Source: an uncultured Pseudodesulfovibrio sp. (GTDB lineage: Bacteria; Desulfobacterota; Desulfovibrionia; Desulfovibrionales; Desulfovibrionaceae). Taken from it: 64,000 bases of DNA. The number at the start of each line of letters is the position of its first letter. Position 1 is the stretch's first letter. Below the pieces are notes generated by a model, which did not search any database, was not told where the DNA came from, and was given only the letters and a program-made list of their open reading frames with translations. Location: positions 3,428,001-3,492,000 of the forward strand of contig NZ_OY761823.1 in assembly GCF_963664965.1 (NCBI RefSeq), given 5' to 3'. The translations under genes and the position numbers were made by a program. This document shows, piece by piece, positions 4,639 through 17,308 of the stretch.

Positions 4639-5340
4639 TCAAACAATGAAGAAGGGACTAGTGGCGCATTCATCAAGACGCGGCTTGTCAAGAATCTGTA
4701 TGGCACCGCGGGATTTGGAAATAAGTCCATGCCCCTGCAAGCGGGAAATGACCCGGGCCGCGGTTTCACGGGAAGTACCCACAAGCTCTGCGACATCCGT
4801 ATTTGTCAGCGGCAGGGTCAGCCCTATCTGGGACGAAACCATGCTCAGGGCATTCAGGATGCGGTTCTCCACACTCTCGTCAATAATGTCGAGGATTCGC
4901 GTATAGGCACCATCAAGCAGATCTCCCATCGTGTTGATAATACCCGCCGCAACATCAGGATGCTTCAGCACCCACCCCTTGAACACGGGACAGGGGATTG
5001 CGATGATCTCGGACTTTTCGGCAACACGCGCCGAAAAAAGACGAACCCGTTTTCGAAAACAGGTAACGGCATTGAGCGGCGTGCCCTGCTGGGCGATACG
5101 GAAGGTAAACGGTTTGCCGGAAAGGGATTCCCGGGACAACACGACGCGCCCGCTCGCCACAAGATAATAACAGCTTGCGTCATCGCCGACTTTGAATATG
5201 TATTCTCCCTTGTCAAAATGAAGTCGGCTTGCCCTCTCTGCCAATTCGGCGAGGGAAGAAATGGTCGCACGATTCAAGTTGATATCTTTTTGCAAGATTT
5301 CAATTATCTGCCGAGATGCTGTGGCTGCGGTCTCCTTCAT
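4639..5340 (-). CDS. Crp/Fnr family transcriptional regulator
   Basis: Cytoplasmic DNA-binding regulator of 233 residues. The N-terminal cyclic-nucleotide-binding-type beta roll is visible at FDKGEYIFKVGDDASCYYLV and following. A long dimer helix (AGIINTMGDLLDGAYTRILDII) leads to a winged helix with recognition segment LTNTDVAELVGTSRETAARV near residues 180-200. The cysteines present (near CYYLV, TCF and IPCP) are not arranged like the N-terminal Fe-S cluster of Fnr. The arrangement suggests control of the downstream DUF190/DUF554 genes or of distant targets. The effector is not evident; Desulfovibrio genomes encode many such paralogues. Confidence 0.88.
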   Translation of the reverse strand: MKETAATASRQIIEILQKDINLNRATISSLAELAERASRLHFDKGEYIFKVGDDASCYYLVASGRVVLSRESLSGKPFTFRIAQQGTPLNAVTCFRKRVRLFSARVAEKSEIIAIPCPVFKGWVLKHPDVAAGIINTMGDLLDGAYTRILDIIDESVENRILNALSMVSSQIGLTLPLTNTDVAELVGTSRETAARVISRLQGHGLISKSRGAIQILDKPRLDECATSPFFIV

Positions 5341-5503: not shown

Positions 5504-6406
5504 CTATGCCGTGGCCTCCGCCTTTGTCACGCCGCCGGACTGGTCGTACATCAAGCCGCAACGCAGATCGAAGTGACGGTTGACACTCATGGTCGGGCAC
5601 GGCGCATTCAGCGCCACCTGCGTTACCGTGGAACCGAGGAACGCCTTTTCAGGGTCACGTTCCTTGGAATGGTGCGCCATGACGATGAGGTCGGCACCAG
5701 ACTGCTGGCCCATACGCAGGATTTCCATGGACGCCTTGCCCCGGCAGGCCTCGAAACCGCAGCCGCTCACGCCTTCGAGCCGCGGACCGTACAGGTCTTC
5801 AAGCCGTCCGATGATTTCACTCCGGCTGCTGCCGTTTTCCACGACATTCATGACCGTCAGGTCGGCCTTGTACTGCCGCGCCATCTGACCGCCGTAACTT
5901 ACGGCACACTCGGCCTGATCGGAGAAGTCGGTGGCCACGAGAATCTTGCTGAACAACGGTTCCTTGCAGACCACGTCCTTGTGAACGACCATGACCGGGC
6001 AACGGGCCTTCTGGCTGACACGCTCAAGCGTGCTGCCCGCCATGCCCCACATCTTGGAGCGCTTTTCCTCATACTCCTTGGTATGCGGCCCCATGACCAC
6101 GAGGTCGGTGTTCTTCTTGCGCGCCAGACGCAGAATCTCGTTGTGCGGAATACCGGGCACGACGATGATCTGCTTTTCGGCGATGCCTTCAAGCACTTCG
6201 GCATAATTCTCCGTGATCTTGGCCTTGATCTTCGCGGTTTCGCCGGACGGTTCCAGCGTTTCCATGGAACCCCAGCCCTGCTCCATTCCGGCGACATGCA
6301 CCAGATACAGCTTGGATTCGAACTTCCGGGCGAATTCGGCCGCCGCCCTGACCGCACAATCGTCAATACCGGTCGGAGTCACACCGACAATGATGTCCTT
6401 AAACAT
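5504..6406 (-). CDS. Tandem-domain universal stress protein, last gene of the Hdr operon
   Basis: Protein of 300 residues made of two UspA-like domains. The first starts MFKDIIVGVTPTGIDDCAVRA and the second FSKILVATDFSDQAECAVSY. Each ends with a nucleotide-binding G-x2-G-x9-G(S/T)-type loop: MGPHTKEYEEKRSKMWGMAGSTLERV for the first, MAHHSKERDPEKAFLGSTV for the second (each quoted piecewise from its domain end). The start at 6406 has AAGGGGG seven bases upstream and overlaps the hdrB-like stop by eight bases, so it is coupled to the redox genes. A role in redox or energy stress sensing for the Hdr complex is inferred. Confidence 0.88.
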   Translation of the reverse strand: MFKDIIVGVTPTGIDDCAVRAAAEFARKFESKLYLVHVAGMEQGWGSMETLEPSGETAKIKAKITENYAEVLEGIAEKQIIVVPGIPHNEILRLARKKNTDLVVMGPHTKEYEEKRSKMWGMAGSTLERVSQKARCPVMVVHKDVVCKEPLFSKILVATDFSDQAECAVSYGGQMARQYKADLTVMNVVENGSSRSEIIGRLEDLYGPRLEGVSGCGFEACRGKASMEILRMGQQSGADLIVMAHHSKERDPEKAFLGSTVTQVALNAPCPTMSVNRHFDLRCGLMYDQSGGVTKAEATA

Positions 6407-7352
6407 GACTTGCCCCCTTGCTGAGGTTTTCCGTCTTTTCCTCCGCCACACCTTCGCCGTCTGCGGTCCGGCTCGACTGATTCCAGACCTTGTTGGCGAT
6501 ATCCCTCCTGACCTCAGCCGACACGGTCAGGTTTTTCTCCAGCAACATAGCCCCGTCCCCCAGCCCGAACGCCATGCCCATGAGCTGCGTCAGGTAAAGG
6601 ATGGGGATTGGTTTGGCCCCAAGCTTTTCCGCCTGGGACTGATACGCCTCCAGATTCATCTGGCAGAGCGGACAGACCGTCACGATCGCGTCCGCGCCTT
6701 CGGCGTCCGACAGGATGGCCGCCACCGACTTGAGCGCCACGTCACGGTGTCCCATCATCAGGGACGCGCCGCAGCACTTGTTGCCGTGGTCCCATTCATG
6801 AATCTCCGATCCGAGACCTTCAAGGATGCCGGTCATGGAAGACGGTTCACGCGGGTTGTCGAACACCGGGTACGGCCTGAGAATCTGGCACCCGTAATAC
6901 GGCGCGATCTTCATGCCTTCGAGATTGTCCGTCACCTTCTGCCCGATGATCTTCGCGCCGATATCATTGATGAACACGTCCAGAATATGCCGGACAGCGA
7001 CACTGCCACCGTAGGTAATGCCGGACGCGGCCAGCACCTCGTTGACCCGGCCATGCAGGGCACGGTTCCCGACAATCTCCTTGTTCACCTTGAGCAGGTT
7101 CAGGTAGCAGGCCGAGCACGGCGCGATCACGTCGATACCGTCCAGTTCCTTCTCGGTAATGGCGAGGTTCCTCGCCGGAAGGACATAATTCATGAGCTTG
7201 CTCACCGGCTCGGCAGCGCTTGCGCCGCAGCAGGTCCAGTCCGGGATTTCCACCAGCTCCACGCCGAGGAATTCCATGACCGCACGGGTTGAGACATCGA
7301 ACTCGACCGCGCTTTCCGTCAGCGAGCATCCGGGGTAGTAGGCATATCTCAT
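6399..7352 (-). CDS. hdrB: Heterodisulfide reductase subunit B-like (HdrB, two CCG domains)
   Basis: Subunit of 317 residues with both cysteine-rich CCG motifs that bind non-cubane [4Fe-4S] clusters in HdrB. The N-terminal set has Cys in YYPGCSL, the pair in DWTCCGAS and CSACY. The C-terminal set has YYGCQ, NKCCGAS and CPLCQMN. In methanogens HdrB reduces CoM-S-S-CoB. Sulfate reducers lack that substrate, so the disulfide or other acceptor here is unknown. The start overlaps the hdrC-like stop by four bases (ATGA). The C-terminus carries about 40 extra polar residues beyond the last CCG motif. Confidence 0.93.
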   Translation of the reverse strand: MRYAYYPGCSLTESAVEFDVSTRAVMEFLGVELVEIPDWTCCGASAAEPVSKLMNYVLPARNLAITEKELDGIDVIAPCSACYLNLLKVNKEIVGNRALHGRVNEVLAASGITYGGSVAVRHILDVFINDIGAKIIGQKVTDNLEGMKIAPYYGCQILRPYPVFDNPREPSSMTGILEGLGSEIHEWDHGNKCCGASLMMGHRDVALKSVAAILSDAEGADAIVTVCPLCQMNLEAYQSQAEKLGAKPIPILYLTQLMGMAFGLGDGAMLLEKNLTVSAEVRRDIANKVWNQSSRTADGEGVAEEKTENLSKGASHV

Positions 7353-7921
7353 GACATCCCCTCCATTTCACGGGCCTTGTCGAACAGCGGCTTGAGGACG
7401 CCGCCCTGACCGCCACCCGGCATGTGGACCTTGCCCTTCTTCATCATCTTCATGCCCAGCGGCATGAATGAGAACGGCAGGGTCGGATTGTCCATGCGCT
7501 TGAAGAAGTAATTGCTCATCATGCCCATTTCCTGCACGCGGCCATGGGCCTCGACATTCTCCATGAACGCACTGTAGAACGCCCCGTTCTTCCGGGCCTC
7601 GCCGCCGCCCCGGATCATGGCGAGCCGCTTCAGGGACGCCATGACCGACGTGAGCTTCAGGCCGCGCGGGCAGCGCAGCGTGCAGGTGTAGCAGGACGAG
7701 CACATCCAGAACGTATGGCTTGCAAAGACCTCATCGAGCATGCCGAACTGGATCATCCGCCACATGGCCCGCGGGGTCACATCCATGGCAAACCCGTTCG
7801 GGCATGATGCCGTGCATGTGCCGCACTGCATGCAGGCGCTGGTCTCGTCCTTCAACTGCGCGAGCACCGACGCATATTCATCCCCTGCCGGGGTCCATGT
7901 TTCTCTGACAGCTTCACTCAT
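7349..7921 (-). CDS. hdrC: Heterodisulfide reductase subunit C-like (HdrC) ferredoxin protein
   Basis: Iron-sulfur subunit of 190 residues that passes electrons from HdrA to HdrB. Two [4Fe-4S] motifs are present, CMQCGTCTASCP near residue 35 and CSSCYTCTLRCP near residue 75, as in HdrC and SdhB-like proteins. The ribosome site GGAGG precedes the ATG, and the stop overlaps the hdrB start. It sits between the double HdrA and HdrB, the usual HdrA-C-B order. Physiological donors and acceptors in this bacterium are not known from sequence. Confidence 0.93.
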   Translation of the reverse strand: MSEAVRETWTPAGDEYASVLAQLKDETSACMQCGTCTASCPNGFAMDVTPRAMWRMIQFGMLDEVFASHTFWMCSSCYTCTLRCPRGLKLTSVMASLKRLAMIRGGGEARKNGAFYSAFMENVEAHGRVQEMGMMSNYFFKRMDNPTLPFSFMPLGMKMMKKGKVHMPGGGQGGVLKPLFDKAREMEGMS

Positions 7922-7950: not shown

Positions 7951-10900
7951 TCAGGCCGGTTCTTCGAGTGCCGCATCAATGACGGACATCATGGGACCGT
8001 CGTGGAATCCCTTGAGCACCGTCGCACTGTTCGGGCAGACCGCCGCGCAGGAGCCGCAGCCCTGACACAGGATCTCGTCCACCTTGATCTGTCCGAGCTC
8101 CATATCCACCACCCGCGCTCCGTACGGACATGCCGCGACGCATGCCTGACACAGAGAACACAGGGAATGCCGGACAGAAGCCACCACGGTTTCGCGTGCG
8201 ATCTTCTCGGCATTGAGAATCCGCAACGACCGCTGGGCAGCCGCCTTTGCCGAAGCCACGGTCTCACCCATTCTTCGGGGAGCGAGGCCGGTGCCGCATG
8301 CGTAGACTCCCTGCTTGAGGAAATCCACGGGCCGCCACTTGAAGTCCGCTTCCTGATAGAAACCGTCCTCGTTGAGTTCCACACCGAAGACTTCAAGGAG
8401 ATCATCCACGTCATTGGGCTCCATTCCGCTGGAGAGCGAAAGGATGTCCGCCTCGATGCGAATGTCCTGCCCGAGTATGTAGTCATGGGCTGTGATGATC
8501 GGCCTGCCGTCCTCAAACACGACCTTGGGCGGGGCGTCCTGCTCGTAGCGAATGAAGATCGCCCCTGCCTTGCGTGCCTGCGTATAATAGGTTTCAAGGA
8601 ATCCCGGCATCATGATGTCGCGATAGAAGACATAGACCGGCAGGTCGGGATTGCGCTCCTTGAGTGCGAGCACGTTCTTGACCATTTCCGGGCAGCAGAC
8701 CCGGCTGCAATACGTCCGGTCCTCGCCCGGTGCGCGCCAACACTGGATCATGGCAACGGCGGAAAGCGCCCCGGCGTCAAGCTGACCCGTGGCAAGCTGT
8801 TCTTCCAGAGCGAGATGGGTCATGACCGACTTGTGCACGCACAGGCCGCTCTCATAGACCTTGGCCTCCTGCGCCCCGGTGGCGAGGATAGACACGCCGT
8901 GTTCCAGCGGGAACACGCCCTCGGGACTGGCGATGGCCGAACGGAACCGCCCCGCGCTGCCGCGGGAAAGCACCACGCGAGAATCCTTGAACACCTTGAT
9001 GTTGGGATGCTTTTCCACCTGCGCGATGAGTTCTTCCATGTACTTTCGAGGATCGGAACCGTCGAGCTGGGTGTGCAGACGCATTGCCATGCCGCCCAGT
9101 TCCTCTTCGGCCTCGACCATACAGACGCCGTATCCCTGATCCGCAATGGCCATGGATGCGGTCATGCCCGCCAGCCCGCCTCCCACCACAAGGGCGGAAC
9201 GCGCCACGTCGACCATGATCGGCGGCGGCACGGGGTCGACCCCCTGCAACCGCGCCACGGCAGTGGACAGGGATGCGTAGATTTCCTTTTCGACCGAGTC
9301 CTTGTCGTCCATGACAAACGTGGGGGTATAGATATCCACCACATCCATGAGCGCAGGATTCAGGCCGATGGTCTTGCCAAGTTCCTTGAGGCGCGGAATG
9401 TAGGCGTACGGCATGCATGCGCCGATGAGAATGCGGTTCGGCTTGAACTCGATTGCCGCCTTCTCGATGTCGCCCCACCCTTCCGAGGTGCAGGCACTGC
9501 CCACATTGACCACCCGGCAGACCGAATGAACCATGGCCATACGTGCGCCGAGCGCCTCGATGTCCACGGTCTGCGCCAGCGTCGGACAGGAGGAACACAC
9601 GGCAACCAACGTGCGAGGCGGTTCCCGCGATACGTCCGGGTATTCCACTTCCGGCTCGGTCGCGATGCCGGCAAGCACGTCATACGCCTTGATGATGCGG
9701 GACGCAGCCTGTGCTGCGGCCCCCGCCTGAATCACGGATTCCGAGATATCCTTGGGTTCTCCCAAAGCTCCGGCGGCAAACACGCCCACCTGGCTCGTCC
9801 TTTCGGGCGAATACGGCTGGGTGTCCACAAAACCCCACTGATTGAGGTCCACACCGATGGTCTGGGCAAACTTGTCCGTTCCCTTGGGCGGGCGCGCACC
9901 CGCGGCCAGCACCACCATGTCAAACGTCTCGGCAATCAGCGTGCCGTCATCCGTGAGGTACTCAAGCTTCAGCTTTCCTTCCTTTGTCGGCAGGACAGTG
10001 TGAGGACGGCTGCGCACGAAACGGACGCCCTCTTCCTTTTCCGCGTTGATACGGTAACGCTGATACCCCTTCCCGGACGTTCGCATGTCCATGTAGAAGA
10101 TCGACGTATCCACCGCACCATCCGTCACCCGCTTGGCAAGCAACGCTTCCTTGATGGAGAACATGCAGCAAATGCCGGTACAGAAATCCGCATTCTTCTG
10201 CACGTCGCGCGAGCCGACGCACTGAATCCACGCGATCTTTTCCGCAGGCTTGTCAGTCCCCGGCATCAACAGCTTCCCACCCGTAGGACCGGTTCCGCTG
10301 ATAAGACGTTCGAATTCGACCGCCGTGAGCACACCGGGGTGCTCGATATTCCAGATATCTGCCGCGCCCTGCGGGTCACTCTTCGGGTCATAGCATTCAA
10401 ATCCGCCCGCAAGCACCACGGCGCCGACTTCAAGCTCCTCGGTGGTATCCGACAGGATACGCACGTACCGCTTGTCGAGCCACGGCACGAAACGCTTGGC
10501 AGCGAGCGGCTTGGTCAGGTATTCCCGCGCTCCCTGCATGACGAGTTCTTCCGCGGCATCCGTCTGCTTTTCATCCGCAAGAATGACCACCGGCATATCG
10601 GGATGCAGTTCCCGGCAACGCGTCAGCACACGTTCGGTATCCATGTCGTTGATGTTCATGCCGAGCAGCACCAGCCGGAACCGGTCGCTTTCGGCAAGCA
10701 TGTCCACGGCCTCGCTCCCGCTTGCGGTGAAGTGCAGCGGGAAGTTCTGTTCCTCCAGACTGCCCCGCATCATCTCCTCGACCGCCTTGTCCCGATCCAC
10801 CACGAGGATATGAAAATCCTTACGCTCCTCGAACTTGAAGTCGATGGCTCCGGTAGGACATGCCTCATAGCACTTCCAACACCGCAGGCAGTTATCGAGA

Positions 10901-11379
10901 TCAAGCACGTAATGGTTGGGAATGGCATGCGGCACGGGCAGGTAGATAGCCGCCCGCTGCGTCAGTCCCGCATTGAACTCGCTGTCCACCCGCACCGGAC
11001 AGACCTCGGAGCACTTGCCGCAACTGACGCACTTGGTGGGGTCCACCAACGGCGACGTGCGATTCAGGGAAATCAGGAACTTTCCCGGTTCACCTTCGAT
11101 ATCCGCCACTTCGGTGGAAAGCATGATGTCTATATTGTCGTGGAAAAGTCCCTTACGCAGACAATACTGGCTGGACGAATCCCGCGACATGAGCGGCAGC
11201 ATCTTGCACATGCCGCAATGGTCCGTGGGGAATTGGTGGTCAAGCTGGCTCAGGATGCCGCCGTGACTGGGACGGCGGTCGATAAGCGCGACCTTGTGAC
11301 CGGTGACCGCGAGGTCCAGGGCTGCACGGATGCCGCCTATCCCCGCTCCGACCACCATTGCTCCATACTGTTTCCTCAT
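7951..11379 (-). CDS. Double HdrA-like flavoprotein with an embedded receiver domain (1142 aa)
   Basis: Two HdrA modules in one chain. Module 1 has an FAD site at residues 9-16 (VVGAGIGG), then two ferredoxin motifs (CVSCGKCSEVCP 117-128, CLRCWKCYEACP 164-175). A response-regulator receiver fold follows at about 188-305 (genome 10465-10818), after which HdrA sequence resumes (CVGSRD 387-392, FCTGICC). Module 2 begins near 590 with the Cys-rich HdrA N-terminal type domain, has its own FAD site (VVGGGLAG 731-738), and ends with ferredoxin motifs at about 1074-1085 and 1105-1116. In the receiver the acidic pair D195/D197 and Lys290 are kept, but the phospho-acceptor position is Gly240 (VLLGMN). 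It probably acts as an electron hub; the receiver is likely structural or a protein-docking site. The REC insertion is directly readable; its role is inference. Confidence 0.92.
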   Translation of the reverse strand: MRKQYGAMVVGAGIGGIRAALDLAVTGHKVALIDRRPSHGGILSQLDHQFPTDHCGMCKMLPLMSRDSSSQYCLRKGLFHDNIDIMLSTEVADIEGEPGKFLISLNRTSPLVDPTKCVSCGKCSEVCPVRVDSEFNAGLTQRAAIYLPVPHAIPNHYVLDLDNCLRCWKCYEACPTGAIDFKFEERKDFHILVVDRDKAVEEMMRGSLEEQNFPLHFTASGSEAVDMLAESDRFRLVLLGMNINDMDTERVLTRCRELHPDMPVVILADEKQTDAAEELVMQGAREYLTKPLAAKRFVPWLDKRYVRILSDTTEELEVGAVVLAGGFECYDPKSDPQGAADIWNIEHPGVLTAVEFERLISGTGPTGGKLLMPGTDKPAEKIAWIQCVGSRDVQKNADFCTGICCMFSIKEALLAKRVTDGAVDTSIFYMDMRTSGKGYQRYRINAEKEEGVRFVRSRPHTVLPTKEGKLKLEYLTDDGTLIAETFDMVVLAAGARPPKGTDKFAQTIGVDLNQWGFVDTQPYSPERTSQVGVFAAGALGEPKDISESVIQAGAAAQAASRIIKAYDVLAGIATEPEVEYPDVSREPPRTLVAVCSSCPTLAQTVDIEALGARMAMVHSVCRVVNVGSACTSEGWGDIEKAAIEFKPNRILIGACMPYAYIPRLKELGKTIGLNPALMDVVDIYTPTFVMDDKDSVEKEIYASLSTAVARLQGVDPVPPPIMVDVARSALVVGGGLAGMTASMAIADQGYGVCMVEAEEELGGMAMRLHTQLDGSDPRKYMEELIAQVEKHPNIKVFKDSRVVLSRGSAGRFRSAIASPEGVFPLEHGVSILATGAQEAKVYESGLCVHKSVMTHLALEEQLATGQLDAGALSAVAMIQCWRAPGEDRTYCSRVCCPEMVKNVLALKERNPDLPVYVFYRDIMMPGFLETYYTQARKAGAIFIRYEQDAPPKVVFEDGRPIITAHDYILGQDIRIEADILSLSSGMEPNDVDDLLEVFGVELNEDGFYQEADFKWRPVDFLKQGVYACGTGLAPRRMGETVASAKAAAQRSLRILNAEKIARETVVASVRHSLCSLCQACVAACPYGARVVDMELGQIKVDEILCQGCGSCAAVCPNSATVLKGFHDGPMMSVIDAALEEPA

Positions 11380-11408
11380 AACGTCCTCCCGAAATCAGGG
11401 ACCTGCAA

Positions 11409-12554
11409 TCAGGCCATGTGCGACACGGTGTCCTGAAACTCGTCTTCCTTGAACACCGAGAGCGGCGGCGACTCGTCGAGACTTCTTCCCGGCTCATAAT
11501 CGAAACTCGCCTGTGTCCGCGCCCCCACGGTGCGGAACAGTTCCATCACCGGGATGTCATTGGGACAGGCATTGGAACACTGTCCGCAGCCGACGCAGGC
11601 CATGGACATGTGCGCCATGCGGGTCAGGTGGAAAAAGATTGTGTCCGTGGGCATCTTGAGACTGCCCTTGCGCTTGGCCCAGCCCATGTACTGCCACGGC
11701 TTGTGCTCGAACACGTCGGTGTTGAAGACGCATTCCTTGCAGTAGCAGACCGGACAGGCCACCCGGCAGTTGTAGCAGTTGACGCAGCCCGACAGGTATT
11801 CTGACAGGTCAGTCAACGTGCCGGTCGCCGCACTGGTTTCCTCGAACATGGCGTCACGGGCTGCCGTGCGGGCCTCGATAAGCGCCTCCAGCACCTTGTC
11901 GCGCCCGTTGGCCTTCATGTCCGGCAGGCCGAGACCGTTGAGCAGCGCCTCGCCCCGCGCACTGTCCGCCATGACGGGAATCCCGTCGTGCAGGTCCGCA
12001 CCGGCCAGACCAATCACGATATCCGCGTTGGTCGGGGATGGATGCTCGCACGACTTGCAGGCGGGCGCGATGTCCACGCCGTCCACAGCGGTTTCCCCAG
12101 CCCCGCCCGTCTTCCCATGAAAGGCCAGTGTCGCTTCAAAGGAATCCCGGTCACCGAGAAACGTCTTGTAATCCGTGTTGCTGTAAGCCCCCATGCAGTC
12201 GATGCCCACGATAACGATGTCGTCAAGGCTGCCCTGATTGAGCTTGACCAGCTCCACGAACGCCCGGATTTCGCAGGGCCGCATCACTGCCGCCACCCGC
12301 TCGCCGGACTGGCCGCGCGTCAAACGCGACAGCAGCTTGGCATTATTCATGGGAAATGCCGGGGCCAGCGGGTCCGCACCGGAAAGCTGGTCCGGGTCGG
12401 TCACCAGCGTCGGCATGGGCATGCCCTTGTCGAACAGGTGAACCGGCACCATGACGCCGCCAATGGATTCGTCTTCAAGCAACCCGCGCAAAAAGCCCTG
12501 AATGGCCACGACGGGGTTGTTGTTTTCAACCTGAATTTTCGCTGTGGTCGCCAT
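11409..12554 (-). CDS. FrhB/FdhB-like iron-sulfur flavoprotein subunit of the Hdr operon
   Basis: Protein of 381 residues resembling the beta subunit family of F420 hydrogenase/formate dehydrogenase. These bind FAD and [4Fe-4S] clusters and link a soluble hydride donor to partner proteins. Conserved-looking parts are VAAVMRPCEIRAFVELVKLNQ split around residue 95, IVGIDCMG, and CKSCEHPSPTNADIVIG. Near residues 258-276 there is a dense cysteine cluster (CVNCYNCRVACPVCYCKEC), and CVGCGQCSNACP lies further on. An SD (GGAGG) precedes the ATG by seven bases. Between mvhD and the double HdrA it probably provides the entry point for electrons. The donor (F420, NAD(P)H, formate or a thiol) cannot be told from sequence. 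Confidence 0.8.
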   Translation of the reverse strand: MATTAKIQVENNNPVVAIQGFLRGLLEDESIGGVMVPVHLFDKGMPMPTLVTDPDQLSGADPLAPAFPMNNAKLLSRLTRGQSGERVAAVMRPCEIRAFVELVKLNQGSLDDIVIVGIDCMGAYSNTDYKTFLGDRDSFEATLAFHGKTGGAGETAVDGVDIAPACKSCEHPSPTNADIVIGLAGADLHDGIPVMADSARGEALLNGLGLPDMKANGRDKVLEALIEARTAARDAMFEETSAATGTLTDLSEYLSGCVNCYNCRVACPVCYCKECVFNTDVFEHKPWQYMGWAKRKGSLKMPTDTIFFHLTRMAHMSMACVGCGQCSNACPNDIPVMELFRTVGARTQASFDYEPGRSLDESPPLSVFKEDEFQDTVSHMA

Positions 12555-12573: not shown

Positions 12574-12999
12574 CTAGACCACGGCCATGGAACGCGCTTC
12601 CATGGGACCGAGTTCTCTGATTTCGTTGACGAAGTTATTCACCGTGGCCGCAAACTCGTTGCCTTCGCTCGCGCCGACCCACGTCAGCTTCACGCGCTCC
12701 CGCTCGATACCGAACTGGGGGAGAATCTCGTTGAGAAGCTTGACCCGGCGTCGGGCCTTGTAATTGCCGTTGATGTAGTGGCAGTCACCGGGATGGCACC
12801 CGCTGACCAACACGCCGTCCGCCCCGGAAAGGATGGATTTCACGATGTACTTTGGGTCAACCATGCCGGTACACATGACGCGCACCAGACGCAGGTTGGG
12901 CTGCTGCACCATCCGGGATGTCCCGGCCAGATCGGCTGCGGTGTAGGTGCACCAGTTGCAAACAAAGGCCAGTATGGTCGGTTCGAATTCACTGCTCAT
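12574..12999 (-). CDS. mvhD: MvhD/FlpD-like [2Fe-2S] electron-transfer subunit
   Basis: Small protein of 141 residues matching methyl-viologen-reducing hydrogenase delta subunit. It starts MSSEFEPTILAFVCNWCTY. Cluster-binding cysteines are visible in FVCNWCTY, VRVMCTGMVD and SGCHPGDCHYINGN. MvhD normally carries electrons from hydrogenase or formate dehydrogenase into HdrA. I chose the ATG at 12999, five bases after AGGAGG; the codon before it is GTG, which would also be in frame. It starts nine bases after the hdrA stop, so the two are cotranscribed and the proteins probably bind each other. Confidence 0.92.
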   Translation of the reverse strand: MSSEFEPTILAFVCNWCTYTAADLAGTSRMVQQPNLRLVRVMCTGMVDPKYIVKSILSGADGVLVSGCHPGDCHYINGNYKARRRVKLLNEILPQFGIERERVKLTWVGASEGNEFAATVNNFVNEIRELGPMEARSMAVV

Positions 13000-13008
13000 C
13001 ACTGCCTC

Positions 13009-15021
13009 CTAAGCCTCGCCGGACTTGTCTTCGATCTGAATTTCGACTCCCGCTGCGGGCGGCGGGTCGAACATCATACCGAGCATTCCGTCGATTTCGT
13101 TGAATATCTGGGTCTGGTTGAAGTGCTTGATCTGGGCGGCTCCGCTGGGACAGTACCCGGCACAGCTGCCGCAGCCCTTGCACATGGCCTCGTTGATGAC
13201 CGACACGTTCCGCCGCTCGTCGAACTCGATGGCCGAATACGGGCAGAGGTCGATGCACACCTTGCATCCGATGCAGATGTCGGGATCGATCCACGATGTG
13301 GTGGGGGAAATCTCGACCTTGCCGCGTGCGGCCAATGCAAGCGCCTGTGCCGCGCCGCCTGATGCGTGGGACACGGCGTCCGGGATGTCCTTGGGCCCCT
13401 GACAGGCTCCGGCAAGGAAAATGCCGTCTGTCGCCGTTGAGACCGGCCCGAGCTTGGGATGTTCCTCAAGCAGGAAGCCGTCCTGCCCCTGAGCCACACC
13501 GAATACACGGGCCACCTCGGTCATGTCCGAACGCGGCTCCATGGCGGTACACAAAACGACCATGTCCACCGGGACCCGCACGTTCATGCCGAGCAGGGTG
13601 TCCTCGCCCACCACGACGAGCTTGCCATTCTCCTCGACCACTTCCGCCGGACGGCCCCGGATGAAGGTCACGCCCTCCTCCTGTACGCGCTGGAAAAATT
13701 CTTCGTAGCCCTTACCGAAACAGCGCATATCGATGTAGAAATTGTAGACTTTGGTGTCGTGACCGACCTTGTCCTTGATGAGATGGTCGAACTTGAGCGC
13801 GTACATGCAGCAGGTGCGCGAACAGTACTCATGGTAGTTCTTGTCTCGGCTGCCCACGCAGTGGATGATCGCCACGGACTCAGGCTTTTCGCCGTTCTTC
13901 AGGAGAATCTGCCCCTCCGTGGGACCGACCGCATTGTTCAGACGCTCGAACTGAAGCGCGGTGTAGACGTTGTCGTACCGCCCGAACCCGTATTCACGCA
14001 TCGGCGTCGGGTCCATGGTATCGTAGCCGGTGGCGAGCACGATGCTGCCCACATGGAACACCTCGCGCCGTTCCTTCATGTCGTAGTCAATGGCCCCGGT
14101 GGGACATATCTTCTGGCACACACCGCACTTGTCTTTTGTGATCTTCTTGCAAATGGTGCCGTCGATGACCGGAGTGTTGGGCACGGCCTGCGGCGAATTG
14201 CGGTAAATCGCCTTACGCATGGACAGCCCTTCGTTGAACTCGCTGATCGCCTTGGTCGGGCACTTTTCCAGACACGCGCCGCAGCCGGTGCAGACATCCT
14301 CGTTGATATAGCGGGGCTTGCGCTTCACCGTGACCGTATAGTTGCCCACGAAGCCGGACACATCCTCGACCTCGCTCCAGGTCAGGAGGTTGATATTCGG
14401 TTCCTGCGACACCGCCACCATCTTCGGTGTGGAAATACAGGCCGCACAGTCGAGCGTGGGGAATGTCTTGTCGAACTGCGCCATATGCCCGCCGATGGAC
14501 GGACTCTTCTCGATGAGGTGCACCTTATGCCCGGACTTGGCGATATCAAGCGAAGCCTGAATTCCGGCAATTCCGGCCCCCACGACCATCACGTCGGGCA
14601 GGACATCGACTTCGCGGGAGAACAGCTCCTGATGATCGCCCACGCGGTCCACCGCAGCCTCGACGATATGCTTGGCCTTGGCGGTCGCCTCATCGGGATC
14701 GGTCGTGGTCCATGAGCAATGCTCACGGATGCAGGCGTGCTGCATGAGGTAGGGATTCAGTCCGGCACGGGCGCACGCCTTCTGAAAGGTCTTTTCGTGC
14801 AGTCTCGGCGAACAGGACGCCACCACCACACGGTTGAGGCCGAACTCGCGGATATCCCGAATGACCATCTCCTGCCCCGGATCGGAACACATGAACTGGT
14901 AATCACGCGAAACAACCACATCCTTGAGGCCTCCCGCATACCGGGCCACGTCTTCACAATCGACCTTTCCCGCGATGTTGGAACCGCAGTGGCAGATGTA
15001 TACACCGATTTTTCTGGCCAT
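13009..15021 (-). CDS. hdrA: Heterodisulfide reductase subunit A-like flavoprotein (HdrA, 670 aa)
   Basis: Canonical-length HdrA, 670 residues, the flavin-bifurcating centre of Hdr complexes. The N-terminal domain (CHCG at 10-13, ASCSPRLHEKTFQ near 68-80) is followed by an FAD-binding thioredoxin-reductase fold (VVGAGIAG at 146-153) and inserted ferredoxin motifs (CTGCGACLEKCP at 244-255, CGVCQKICP near 300). C-terminal ferredoxin motifs are CIGCKVCIDLCP and CKGCGSCAGYCP. The CVGSRD and CSRTCC segments are present as in methanogen HdrA. A GGAGG site precedes the start, and mvhD follows at once. It forms the conventional half of an operon that also encodes a double HdrA. Confidence 0.94.
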   Translation of the reverse strand: MARKIGVYICHCGSNIAGKVDCEDVARYAGGLKDVVVSRDYQFMCSDPGQEMVIRDIREFGLNRVVVASCSPRLHEKTFQKACARAGLNPYLMQHACIREHCSWTTTDPDEATAKAKHIVEAAVDRVGDHQELFSREVDVLPDVMVVGAGIAGIQASLDIAKSGHKVHLIEKSPSIGGHMAQFDKTFPTLDCAACISTPKMVAVSQEPNINLLTWSEVEDVSGFVGNYTVTVKRKPRYINEDVCTGCGACLEKCPTKAISEFNEGLSMRKAIYRNSPQAVPNTPVIDGTICKKITKDKCGVCQKICPTGAIDYDMKERREVFHVGSIVLATGYDTMDPTPMREYGFGRYDNVYTALQFERLNNAVGPTEGQILLKNGEKPESVAIIHCVGSRDKNYHEYCSRTCCMYALKFDHLIKDKVGHDTKVYNFYIDMRCFGKGYEEFFQRVQEEGVTFIRGRPAEVVEENGKLVVVGEDTLLGMNVRVPVDMVVLCTAMEPRSDMTEVARVFGVAQGQDGFLLEEHPKLGPVSTATDGIFLAGACQGPKDIPDAVSHASGGAAQALALAARGKVEISPTTSWIDPDICIGCKVCIDLCPYSAIEFDERRNVSVINEAMCKGCGSCAGYCPSGAAQIKHFNQTQIFNEIDGMLGMMFDPPPAAGVEIQIEDKSGEA

Positions 15022-15308: not shown

Positions 15309-15604
15309 CCGCCGACCTCCTTGCCCTCTTCCCATGTCTTCAACTTTCCGGGTGGTTACTTGGAGAGTTTGAGAGTGTTGCGCCACCTGAACCGTTTCAG
15401 TGTTACTGCCTGCTTTCAGGCAACCTCGCTTTCACCAAGAAGAAAAACGTTCTTCCGATGTCTGCGCCAGACCCGGACGGCTCTCACCTGCTCTCTAAGA
15501 ACAAGATGTATACCGCTTGGTGATATGTGTAGATATTCCGATTTGATGAGGAGAGACTGCCGCAATTGAAACACTTGTTTTTATGAAAAAAACGCCGTCA
15601 AACT

Positions 15605-15621
15605 GTCTTGAAAAACAAGAC
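15605..15621. promoter_or_regulatory. Palindromic operator copy 1 (GTCTTG-N5-CAAGAC)
   Basis: Perfect 6-bp inverted repeat GTCTTG/CAAGAC around AAAAA. It lies about 297 bases from the first gene of the Hdr operon and 275 bases from the activator, a normal distance for an enhancer site of an NtrC-type protein. Confidence 0.7.
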
Positions 15622-15623
15622 TG

Positions 15624-15640
15624 GTCTTGCGGAATAAGAC
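15624..15640. promoter_or_regulatory. Palindromic operator copy 2 (one mismatch)
   Basis: GTCTTG-CGGAA-TAAGAC, one base off the perfect palindrome, centred 19 bases from copy 1. Two such sites side by side fit cooperative binding of dimers; the binder is inferred to be the divergent activator. Confidence 0.65.
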
Positions 15641-15745: not shown

Positions 15746-15762
15746 GTCTTGCAAAACAAGAC
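15746..15762. promoter_or_regulatory. Palindromic operator copy 3
   Basis: Perfect GTCTTG-CAAAA-CAAGAC, 65 bases upstream of the -35 hexamer proposed for the activator gene. Its position suggests control of the activator itself as well as the Hdr operon. Confidence 0.68.
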
Positions 15763-15857: not shown

Positions 15858-15895
15858 GGCGAGGGGATCCTTTAAGGGAAGAAGAGGTGTTTGCC

Positions 15896-17308
15896 ATGGC
15901 CGAAATTCTCATCATAGATGGCGACCACGGCTTTTCTCAGGGGCTTGAGAAAGCGCTTGCTACGTATGATCTGCCGGCAGCCCACTGCGATTCCCTGTCT
16001 CGGGCCATGGGCCTCCTGCACACCGGCAACTACAAGGCGGTCCTGCTCGGTGACGACCTCACCGACGGCGATATTTTGGCTTACCTTTCCACCATCCGTG
16101 AAATTCCGTCGTTCCCCGAAGTGATCGTTGTCTCACGCAGCCGCGACCCGGACACGGCAGAAGCCGCCATTCAAAACGGTGCTTGGAATTACGTCACCAA
16201 ACCGCCGAACATGCAGCGGCTTCTGGTGCTCCTCAAACGGGTCATGGAATATCATGAAGAACGGCACTCCAACACCATCCGCTGTTCTCTTCGCAGGGAA
16301 GGCATCATCGGCAACAGCCGCCCCCTTCAGGCGTGTCTCGACACGCTGGCACAGGCCGCAGGGTCCGATGCCAACGTCCTCGTCATAGGGGAAACCGGAA
16401 CAGGCAAGGAACTCTTTGCCCGCGCCATCCACAAGAACAGCGCACGCGTCAGCCGTCCTTTCGTGGTGGTGGACTGCGCGGCCCTGCCGGATACGCTGGC
16501 CGAAAGCCTGCTTTTCGGTCACGAGCGGGGAGCCTATACCAGTGCGGATACCAAGTCCGTCGGACTCATCAAACAGGCCGACGGCGGCACGCTTTTCCTT
16601 GATGAAGTGGGCGAACTGCCCGTTTCCCTGCAAAAAGTCTTTCTACGCGTCCTTGAAGGCCGCAGCTTCCGTCCCGTAGGCGGAGTCAGGGAAATTCAAA
16701 GCGACTTCCGTCTGCTGGCAGCGACAAACAGGGATCTGGAAATAATGGTGGATAATGGAGAGTTCCGCCGTGACCTGTTTTATCGATTGCGCGGCATCCG
16801 TCTGCAACTGCCGCCCCTGAGGGCCATTTCCGAAGACATCAACGAACTGACCTGCAAATTCATCCAACGCCATTGCAAACGCTTCAGAATGACAAGCAAA
16901 GGATTCTCACCCGATTTTCTTGACGCGCTCATGCATTACGAATGGCCCGGAAACATCCGCGAACTCATGAACACGCTTGAACAGGCCCTGTCACGGGCAG
17001 GCAAGGAACACATCCTGTACCCCCGCCATCTGCCCAGAGTCATCCGGGCACAGATCGCCCGACGGGATTTGGAAAAGAGCCTCCCCGTAAAAACCGTTCC
17101 TCAGGGAAAAGGCTCCTTTGAGGCTTCAAAGTTCCCGACCCTCAAAGACTATCGCAAGCAGCAGACTGAAATCATGGAAAAAAGTTACCTTCGCAACATG
17201 CTCGACATTACCAACGGAGACATCCGGCAATCATGCAGAATTTCCGGTCTTTCCCGCGCTCGGCTGTACGCCCTGCTCAAGCAGCACGGCATCCATCGAA
17301 AAGAATGA
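15896..17308 (+). CDS. NtrC-family AAA+ activator with a degenerate receiver domain
   Basis: Regulator of 470 residues: receiver fold (1-118), sigma-54 AAA+ domain (about 135-365) and a Fis-type HTH at the end (NGDIRQSCRISGLSRARLYA). Walker A is GETGTGKE (165-172) and Walker B is GTLFLDE (231-237). The sigma-54 contact loop reads GAYTSA (212-217) instead of GAFTGA. The receiver phospho-acceptor position is Gly52 (VLLGDD), while Lys102 and Ser80 are kept. The start ATG at 15896 follows AAGAGG; an in-frame GTG at 15887 is less likely. It is divergent from the Hdr operon across shared palindromes, so it is probably its regulator. Phosphorylation-independent control is inferred. Confidence 0.88.
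   Translation: MAEILIIDGDHGFSQGLEKALATYDLPAAHCDSLSRAMGLLHTGNYKAVLLGDDLTDGDILAYLSTIREIPSFPEVIVVSRSRDPDTAEAAIQNGAWNYVTKPPNMQRLLVLLKRVMEYHEERHSNTIRCSLRREGIIGNSRPLQACLDTLAQAAGSDANVLVIGETGTGKELFARAIHKNSARVSRPFVVVDCAALPDTLAESLLFGHERGAYTSADTKSVGLIKQADGGTLFLDEVGELPVSLQKVFLRVLEGRSFRPVGGVREIQSDFRLLAATNRDLEIMVDNGEFRRDLFYRLRGIRLQLPPLRAISEDINELTCKFIQRHCKRFRMTSKGFSPDFLDALMHYEWPGNIRELMNTLEQALSRAGKEHILYPRHLPRVIRAQIARRDLEKSLPVKTVPQGKGSFEASKFPTLKDYRKQQTEIMEKSYLRNMLDITNGDIRQSCRISGLSRARLYALLKQHGIHRKE

Follow-up and report, generated by a model that had tools for sequence, protein, structure and literature searches.

Receiver domains are found joined to a related flavoprotein fold in the fused response regulator/thioredoxin-disulfide reductases, where the fusion is terminal and is not an insertion into HdrA. 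The closest described enzymes are the HdrA proteins of methane-metabolising archaea for which the name type II was introduced; these carry two thioredoxin-reductase-like modules per chain, each with the glutamate and the lysine of bifurcation, and the residues E356 and K409 have been linked to electron bifurcation in HdrA (PMC12054007). As described there, 14% of the archaeal type II genes adjoin HdrBC, MvhD and FdhB, and the archaeal cluster has a molybdopterin-family protein, unlike the locus reported here. The main text of that paper does not mention response regulators, receivers, CheY or two-component systems. Hdr locus VIII of Desulfobacterium autotrophicum HRM2 has hdrL and hdrA in tandem, together with a gene for formate dehydrogenase B and orthologues of HdrB and HdrC (PMC2702500), like the canonical loci discussed below, and the word receiver is absent from the main text of its description. 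In Desulfovibrio alaskensis G20, which belongs to the same order as our source genome, the Hdr complex is thought to bifurcate and mutants have phenotypes on formate, hydrogen, and ethanol, but it works with flox genes, unlike the present one (PMC4215793).

Bacterial pseudo-receivers share the PF00072 fold of the insert described here and likewise do without the second acid, the phospho-acceptor Asp, and the conserved Thr; they make up about 6% of a representative bacterial receiver set (PMC12632262). The examples given in that account are regulators and signalling proteins, whereas ours sits in a redox enzyme subunit and has relatives outside the order that are fully canonical. None of the titles and abstract openings listed in literature searches on receivers, kinases, and regulators with Hdr, or on pseudo-receivers, describes a receiver in HdrA.

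In this study, a Pseudodesulfovibrio HdrA containing a receiver is compared with its relatives. The window is the stretch of 64,000 nucleotides that was analysed, and its features are collected in Table 1. The insert is real, conserved, and unusual; in the window it is a pseudo-receiver, which probably acts as a structural or allosteric brace.

Table 1. Features of the window around the HdrA with an inserted receiver.
Feature	Coordinates	Strand	Remarks
Universal stress protein (Usp), two Usp stretches	5504..6451	-	PF00582
hdrB-like, CCG domain in two stretches	6399..7352	-	score under curated HdrB cut-offs
hdrC-like	7349..7921	-	score under curated HdrC cut-offs
hdrA type II with receiver insert, 1142 aa	7951..11379	-	two thioredoxin-reductase-like FAD modules
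Inserted segment, residues 183-314	10438..10833	-	replaces residues 320-325 of solved HdrA 8rvu
Receiver PF00072, pseudo-receiver, residues 191-297	10489..10809	-	Pfam
Gly240 codon at phospho-Asp position	10660..10662	-	
FrhB/FdhB-C-like Fe-S protein	11409..12554	-	PF04432, 34.8 bits
mvhD (FlpD family)	12574..13002	-	PF02662, 180.3 bits
Second hdrA, 670 aa, one FAD module	13009..15021	-	
Small HTH_Tnp_1 (IS3 OrfA-like) protein, 89 aa	15039..15308	-	upstream of second hdrA
Conserved block like a sigma-54 -24/-12 promoter	15495..15515	-	20 chosen loci; weak
Palindrome GTCTTG-N5-CAAGAC, perfect	15605..15621	+	proposed regulator site
Palindrome GTCTTG-N5-CAAGAC, one mismatch	15624..15640	+	
Palindrome GTCTTG-N5-CAAGAC, perfect	15746..15762	+	
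NtrC-type sigma-54 activator, divergent, pseudo-receiver	15887..17308	+	ATG also at 15896

A receiver domain inside a type II HdrA

As the original prediction had read it, the protein is a double HdrA; both halves align with solved HdrA chains, and the presence of two thioredoxin-reductase-like FAD modules in one chain makes it type II. A hand alignment made from printed alignments identifies E357/K410 and E859/K901 as the equivalents of E356/K409, and all four residues are invariant in 19 HdrA orthologue rows, as expected of a bifurcating HdrA. The protein is therefore predicted, from its sequence, to be a subunit of an electron-bifurcating enzyme. The order divergent regulator, second hdrA, mvhD, FrhB-like gene, hdrA with receiver, hdrC, hdrB, and Usp is common to the window and 18/18 other loci of the first set, with only a partial regulator match in L045. 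The small IS3 OrfA-like HTH gene is present in 35/35 of the kinase-less and 3/25 of the kinase-bearing loci defined below, and its product is perhaps a domesticated part of a transposase. A 1144-residue open frame antisense to hdrA (8002-11436, plus strand) is most likely a shadow frame, and one MAG (G201) carries the operon twice, on two contigs (L056 and L061). No Rfam RNA was found at gathering scores between positions 5000 and 18000 of the window.

Residues 7-182 and 315-511 of the HdrA align with residues 154-319 and 326-518 of the 8rvu chain, and between them 132 inserted residues stand where 8rvu has six, directly behind the internal ferredoxin domain, where the chain has yet to re-enter the FAD domain. 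The insert is missing from ten other HdrA loci of relatives (L021-L030). A profile search bore out the claim that it is a receiver, with a PF00072 score of 54.3 bits for residues 191-297 against a curated cut-off of 30.2, and AlphaFold2 places residues 190-306 in the (beta-alpha)5 order b1a1b2a2b3a3b4a4b5a5, the last helix at low confidence and the blocks of residues 191-290 at a pLDDT of 72-87. The model of the whole HdrA, built from 19 sequences, has a mean pLDDT of 61.8 and a pTM of 0.35, so its domain arrangement is unreliable, though the receiver core is well formed. A genome-wide PF00072 scan recovers the same segment (10489-10809, minus strand, 59.3 bits) among 104 matches (E<=0.001); the receiver domain is thus common in this genome and its placement inside HdrA is uncommon.

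A working phospho-receiver has the acid pair, the phospho-accepting D, T or S, and K all present (canonical pattern DDDTK). The window HdrA receiver reads D195, R196, G240, A268, K290 (D-R-G-A-K), so that three of the five phosphotransfer residues are lost, including the conserved T that A268 replaces, and D195 and K290 are kept; it is a recognised receiver that lacks key residues, which is to say a pseudo-receiver. The glycine at the phospho-Asp position and K290 are as originally predicted, but the acidic pair had been given as D195/D197. The pair consists of two adjacent residues (PMC12632262) and is D195/R196 here, so the metal-binding acid is missing. In an alignment of homologues and counting the window, 18 of the 20 rows of the first set that carry the insert have Gly at position 240, as do 31 of the 35 loci of the window's clade. 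As the phospho-acceptor has been lost across a clade, the domain can no longer be phosphorylated on Asp, and its role is likely to be structural or allosteric.

Three receiver states and the kinases beside them

Among 297 genomes of the order, 62 have the fusion, as do 15 of 395 genomes in a phylum sample, 11 of the 15 lying outside the order (E<=1e-40 in both searches), and it is therefore not a local mutation. In a scan of genome contigs that kept 80 of 127 relatives, L049-L084 match across the fusion, or nearly so, and the rest match in the ferredoxin part only; the relatives listed include Pseudodesulfovibrio, Desulfomicrobium, Solidesulfovibrio alcoholivorans, Desulfoferrobacter suflitae, and one MAG labelled Latescibacterota. 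The insert is spanned in 97 loci (79 unique), to which 11 further loci were added later. For the comparison of states, 60 unique Desulfovibrionales loci with the divergent regulator were used, 25 with and 35 without a PAS-HisKA-HATPase kinase between the regulator and the operon (Pfam checked in L060 and L063).

Three states can be distinguished. Outside Desulfovibrionales, the HdrA receiver is DDDTK in 26/26 rows (23 unique) and has every residue of a working phospho-receiver. In the kinase-bearing Desulfovibrionales, the regulator receiver is canonical in 25/25 loci and the HdrA receiver in 0/25. In the window's clade, which is kinase-less, the counts are 0/34 for the regulator receiver (the truncated regulator of L170 being left out) and 0/35 for the HdrA receiver; L164 and L165 keep the regulator Asp and have lost the second acid. 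The HdrA receiver is also non-canonical in four loci with no regulator in view (L050, L058, L080, and L199). An Asp in close relatives, which the original prediction would have taken as the sign of a local mutation, does occur, but it counts against the prediction in form only: every Asp-bearing Desulfovibrionales relative lacks other catalytic residues. One locus with the window's genus code (L047, genome G016) has a kinase-bearing operon placed elsewhere in the tree, by transfer or misplacement.

At the window locus, no kinase was found in the 865-bp gap between regulator and operon, and the regulator receiver is D-G-G-S-K; a kinase beside a phospho-competent regulator is thus absent on both counts. 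A move of the kinase to another place was rejected, as the best matches to the L060 kinase in the kinase-less genomes G000, G014, G024, and G036 score 243-301 bits and begin at residue 123 or later, compared with 394-469 bits from residues 16-35 at the locus in the kinase-bearing G016, G029, and G073. A diverged copy may be present elsewhere in the kinase-less genomes.

In a tree of HdrA without the receiver, made by a quick method that gave long-branch warnings, the 35 kinase-less loci group in a single clade (SH-aLRT 100), with one change in kinase presence over the tree, three at the regulator site, and four at the HdrA site. Since the kinase was lost only once, the link between this loss and regulator decay lies beyond a statistical test (one independent pair in a sign test). 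Four kinase-less loci outside the 31-row clade with Gly (L173, L064, L189, and L194) have G or A in the regulator and D in HdrA, so decay seems to have started in the regulator, and Gly also arose separately in L075/L191. In a tree of 48 chosen receiver domains, the Desulfovibrionales HdrA receivers are one clade among the canonical ones (14 rows, 100/100, stem 1.14), a nesting that depends on unstarred forks and a midpoint root, and the regulator receivers form a separate clade (13 rows, 100/99). Gene conversion between the two receivers as the source of their shared VLLG was rejected on account of these well-supported clades of the 48-domain tree. The loci record a natural series of steps that begins with a kinase and a canonical receiver and ends with two pseudo-receivers and no kinase, and this bears on how pseudo-receivers work, which is called a mystery in PMC12632262.

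Of the 18 unique canonical loci that could be assessed, 12 (L070, L072, L076, L078, L081, L084, L206, L208, and L210-L213) have a kinase that starts within 400 bp behind hdrB on the same strand; for L084 and L213, which yielded no hdrB, the distance is counted from hdrA. The kinase is second in line at 1.3 kb in L214, after a Usp-receiver-Usp gene, and appears only at 3.3 kb behind hdrB in L068; none was found in L066, L067, L073, and L077, with only 2.6 and 1.4 kb in view in L067 and L073. The cultured Desulfoferrobacter suflitae DRH4 also has a canonical HdrA, and no kinase was seen near it. These calls were made with a profile from Desulfovibrionales kinases, and Pfam confirms the three that were checked (L206, L212, and L214). 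That the distant relatives keep the Asp, often with an adjacent kinase, suggests direct switching of the enzyme by phosphorylation in the past. Of the 11 canonical loci with more than 3 kb upstream in view, four (L072, L073, L078, and L081) have a divergent kinase and an NtrC-like regulator with 33-37% identity to the window's regulator, so the kinases may serve transcription and not HdrA, and transcription control may predate Desulfovibrionales. Kinases behind hdrB together with such upstream regulators also mean that direct and transcriptional control may have coexisted.

Plausibly, then, the distant relatives have a true phospho-switch on a bifurcating enzyme. A fuller scenario, which we put forward tentatively as a real possibility, is that in Desulfobacterota outside Desulfovibrionales and in the Latescibacterota-labelled MAG the bifurcating HdrA is a response regulator, whose receiver at the root of the ferredoxin arm would be phosphorylated by PAS kinases of its own operon and would gate bifurcation. 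The window would be the end state, in which the switch died, transcription control stayed, and the phosphate was then lost there too. If the canonical relatives use the receiver, they would have a two-component switch built directly into an electron-bifurcating enzyme, for which literature searches found no report.

The Usp-receiver-Usp protein of L214 (13695-15017) directly follows hdrB and its receiver clusters with the HdrA receivers (99/99), so the domain seems to be shared between HdrA and a stress protein of the same operon. The first HdrA of L077 (4424-7801) has 1125 residues and a GltD-like NAD(P)H module (Pyr_redox_2, Fer4_20), like type III HdrA, and the first HdrA in several other canonical loci is similar in length.

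Constraint on the receiver and competing explanations

The Kimura rate of the receiver relative to its flanks is 0.54 in canonical, 2.55 in kinase-bearing, and 2.71 in kinase-less loci. Median dN/dS, measured with dS near saturation (about 1), is 0.40 for the receiver and 0.17 for the flank in kinase-less loci (297 pairs), 0.47 and 0.22 in kinase-bearing loci (43 pairs), and 0.08 and 0.13 in canonical loci (5 pairs only). Nine residues on helix 3 and the exit helix (R250, R254, E257, W300, D302, K303, R307, S310, and D311) are each present in 35/35 loci of the window's clade and in 20-25 of the 25 kinase-bearing loci; of the nine, E257 alone is frequent in the canonical set (17/22), where the R250 site is mostly Glu (19/22). 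Conservation of helix 4 is 0.92 in canonical, 0.67 in kinase-less, and 0.51 in kinase-bearing loci, and that of helix 5 is 0.55, 0.81, and 0.66, respectively. K290 is present in 35/35 loci of the window's clade compared with 14/25 of the kinase-bearing ones. Constraint has moved away from the phospho-switch and closer to helix 3 and the exit helix; the receiver of the window's clade is not a working switch, nor does it seem to drift freely.

The reading that we favour, and consider somewhat probable from these comparisons of sequences, is that HdrA was once controlled by phosphorylation and that its receiver is now a phosphorylation-dead structural or allosteric brace. The ancestor, like the loci outside Desulfovibrionales today, probably had an HdrA that doubled as a response regulator; electron flow would have been gated when a kinase from the same operon phosphorylated the Asp of the receiver, at the base of the internal ferredoxin domain. 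In Desulfovibrionales the catalytic residues of the HdrA receiver were lost and transcription control remains beside the operon, in part of the order as a divergent PAS kinase with a canonical NtrC-type activator that would drive the operon. In the window's clade the kinase is gone, the activator receiver has lost its active site, and the proposed DNA sites are kept. The HdrA receiver is kept whole, has newly invariant residues on the exit helix and helix 3, and most likely serves as a brace, either from the ferredoxin to the FAD modules or to partner subunits.

Relaxed constraint, where clean deletion of the domain is not possible, would also explain why the receiver is retained. A pure relic, which decays as a spacer and is kept only since precise deletion would disturb the HdrA fold, would fit the 2.55-2.71 times faster evolution of the receiver in Desulfovibrionales and the many different ways in which catalytic residues were lost. 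We consider it rather unlikely, given that the receiver dN/dS in the window's clade is still under 1, that eight residues that are not common in the canonical set turned invariant there, and that K290 is present in every locus of that clade. A pocket for a non-phosphate ion or small ligand would account for the joint retention of the first acid, Gly, and Lys in the two pseudo-receivers. Among HdrA receivers of the clade, the first acid is D in 32/35 and the Lys is present in 35/35, and 34/34 of its regulator receivers have both D and K; a D-K salt bridge replacing the Asp would leave the same trace, and such a pocket seems very improbable.

The original prediction proposed a docking or allosteric role, in which the divergent regulator could read the redox state of the complex through the HdrA receiver. 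The loss of the acceptor throughout the clade agrees with the allosteric part. Docking would mean that the HdrA pseudo-receiver binds the pseudo-receiver of the regulator and that the complex, through its state, controls transcription of the operon that encodes it with no phosphate involved; it has a precedent in the WhiI/BldM heterodimers (PMC12632262), the pairing with the divergent regulator is kept throughout the first set, and 28/60 loci have Gly at the phospho-site of both receivers. This G/G pairing is confined to one 31-row clade, however, and the other loci are 19 D/D, 4 S/D, 4 G/D, 3 D/A, and 1 D/G, with one truncated regulator. R254 (25/25) and R250 (20/25) are already present in kinase-bearing loci, whose regulators are canonical. 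With each protein's background removed, and L170, L045, L065, and rows without an operon protein left out, the distances of the two receivers have a partial r of -0.007 (p 0.54, 32 kinase-less loci) and 0.093 (p 0.20, 23 kinase-bearing loci), although the regulator receiver correlates with HdrA outside the insert in kinase-less loci (0.512, p 0.001). The nil partial correlation lowers the probability of the docking model, which we regard as improbable, and neither it nor the separate clades of the two receivers supports a regulator that reads the complex in this way.

In partial Mantel tests, the HdrA receiver is correlated with the FrhB-like protein (0.349) and HdrA1 (0.334; p 0.003) in kinase-less loci and with HdrB (0.415, p 0.003) and HdrC (0.215, p 0.027) in kinase-bearing loci; because the partners differ between the groups and many tests were run, these signals are a hint only.

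The divergent regulator and its proposed DNA sites

The regulator receiver has D11, G12, G55, S83, and K105, so both the phospho-Asp (G55) and the second acid (G12) are lost. Its sigma-54 activation domain (PF00158, 212.1 bits) keeps the Walker motifs and RRDLFYRL. The regulator is inferred to bind the GTCTTG-N5-CAAGAC palindromes. The perfect form occurs twice in the 3.87-Mb genome, both times at this locus, and with one mismatch there are 16 sites genome-wide compared with 10 for a reversed control. Within 1 kb upstream of the second hdrA, the palindrome is found in 34/35 kinase-less and 15/25 kinase-bearing loci, and the reversed control in 0/60. The proposed DNA target was thus kept while the regulator changed.

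The promoter-like block was missed by a weighted sigma-54 consensus scan over the last 450 bp, which makes the promoter assignment weak, and in the window's clade such scans gave nothing above shuffles for most loci. The sigma-54 contact loop of the regulator is GAYTSA and not GAFTGA; kinase-less loci usually have GAFTSA or GAYTSA, with GAFTNA in L172, and some kinase-bearing loci also have a variant loop.
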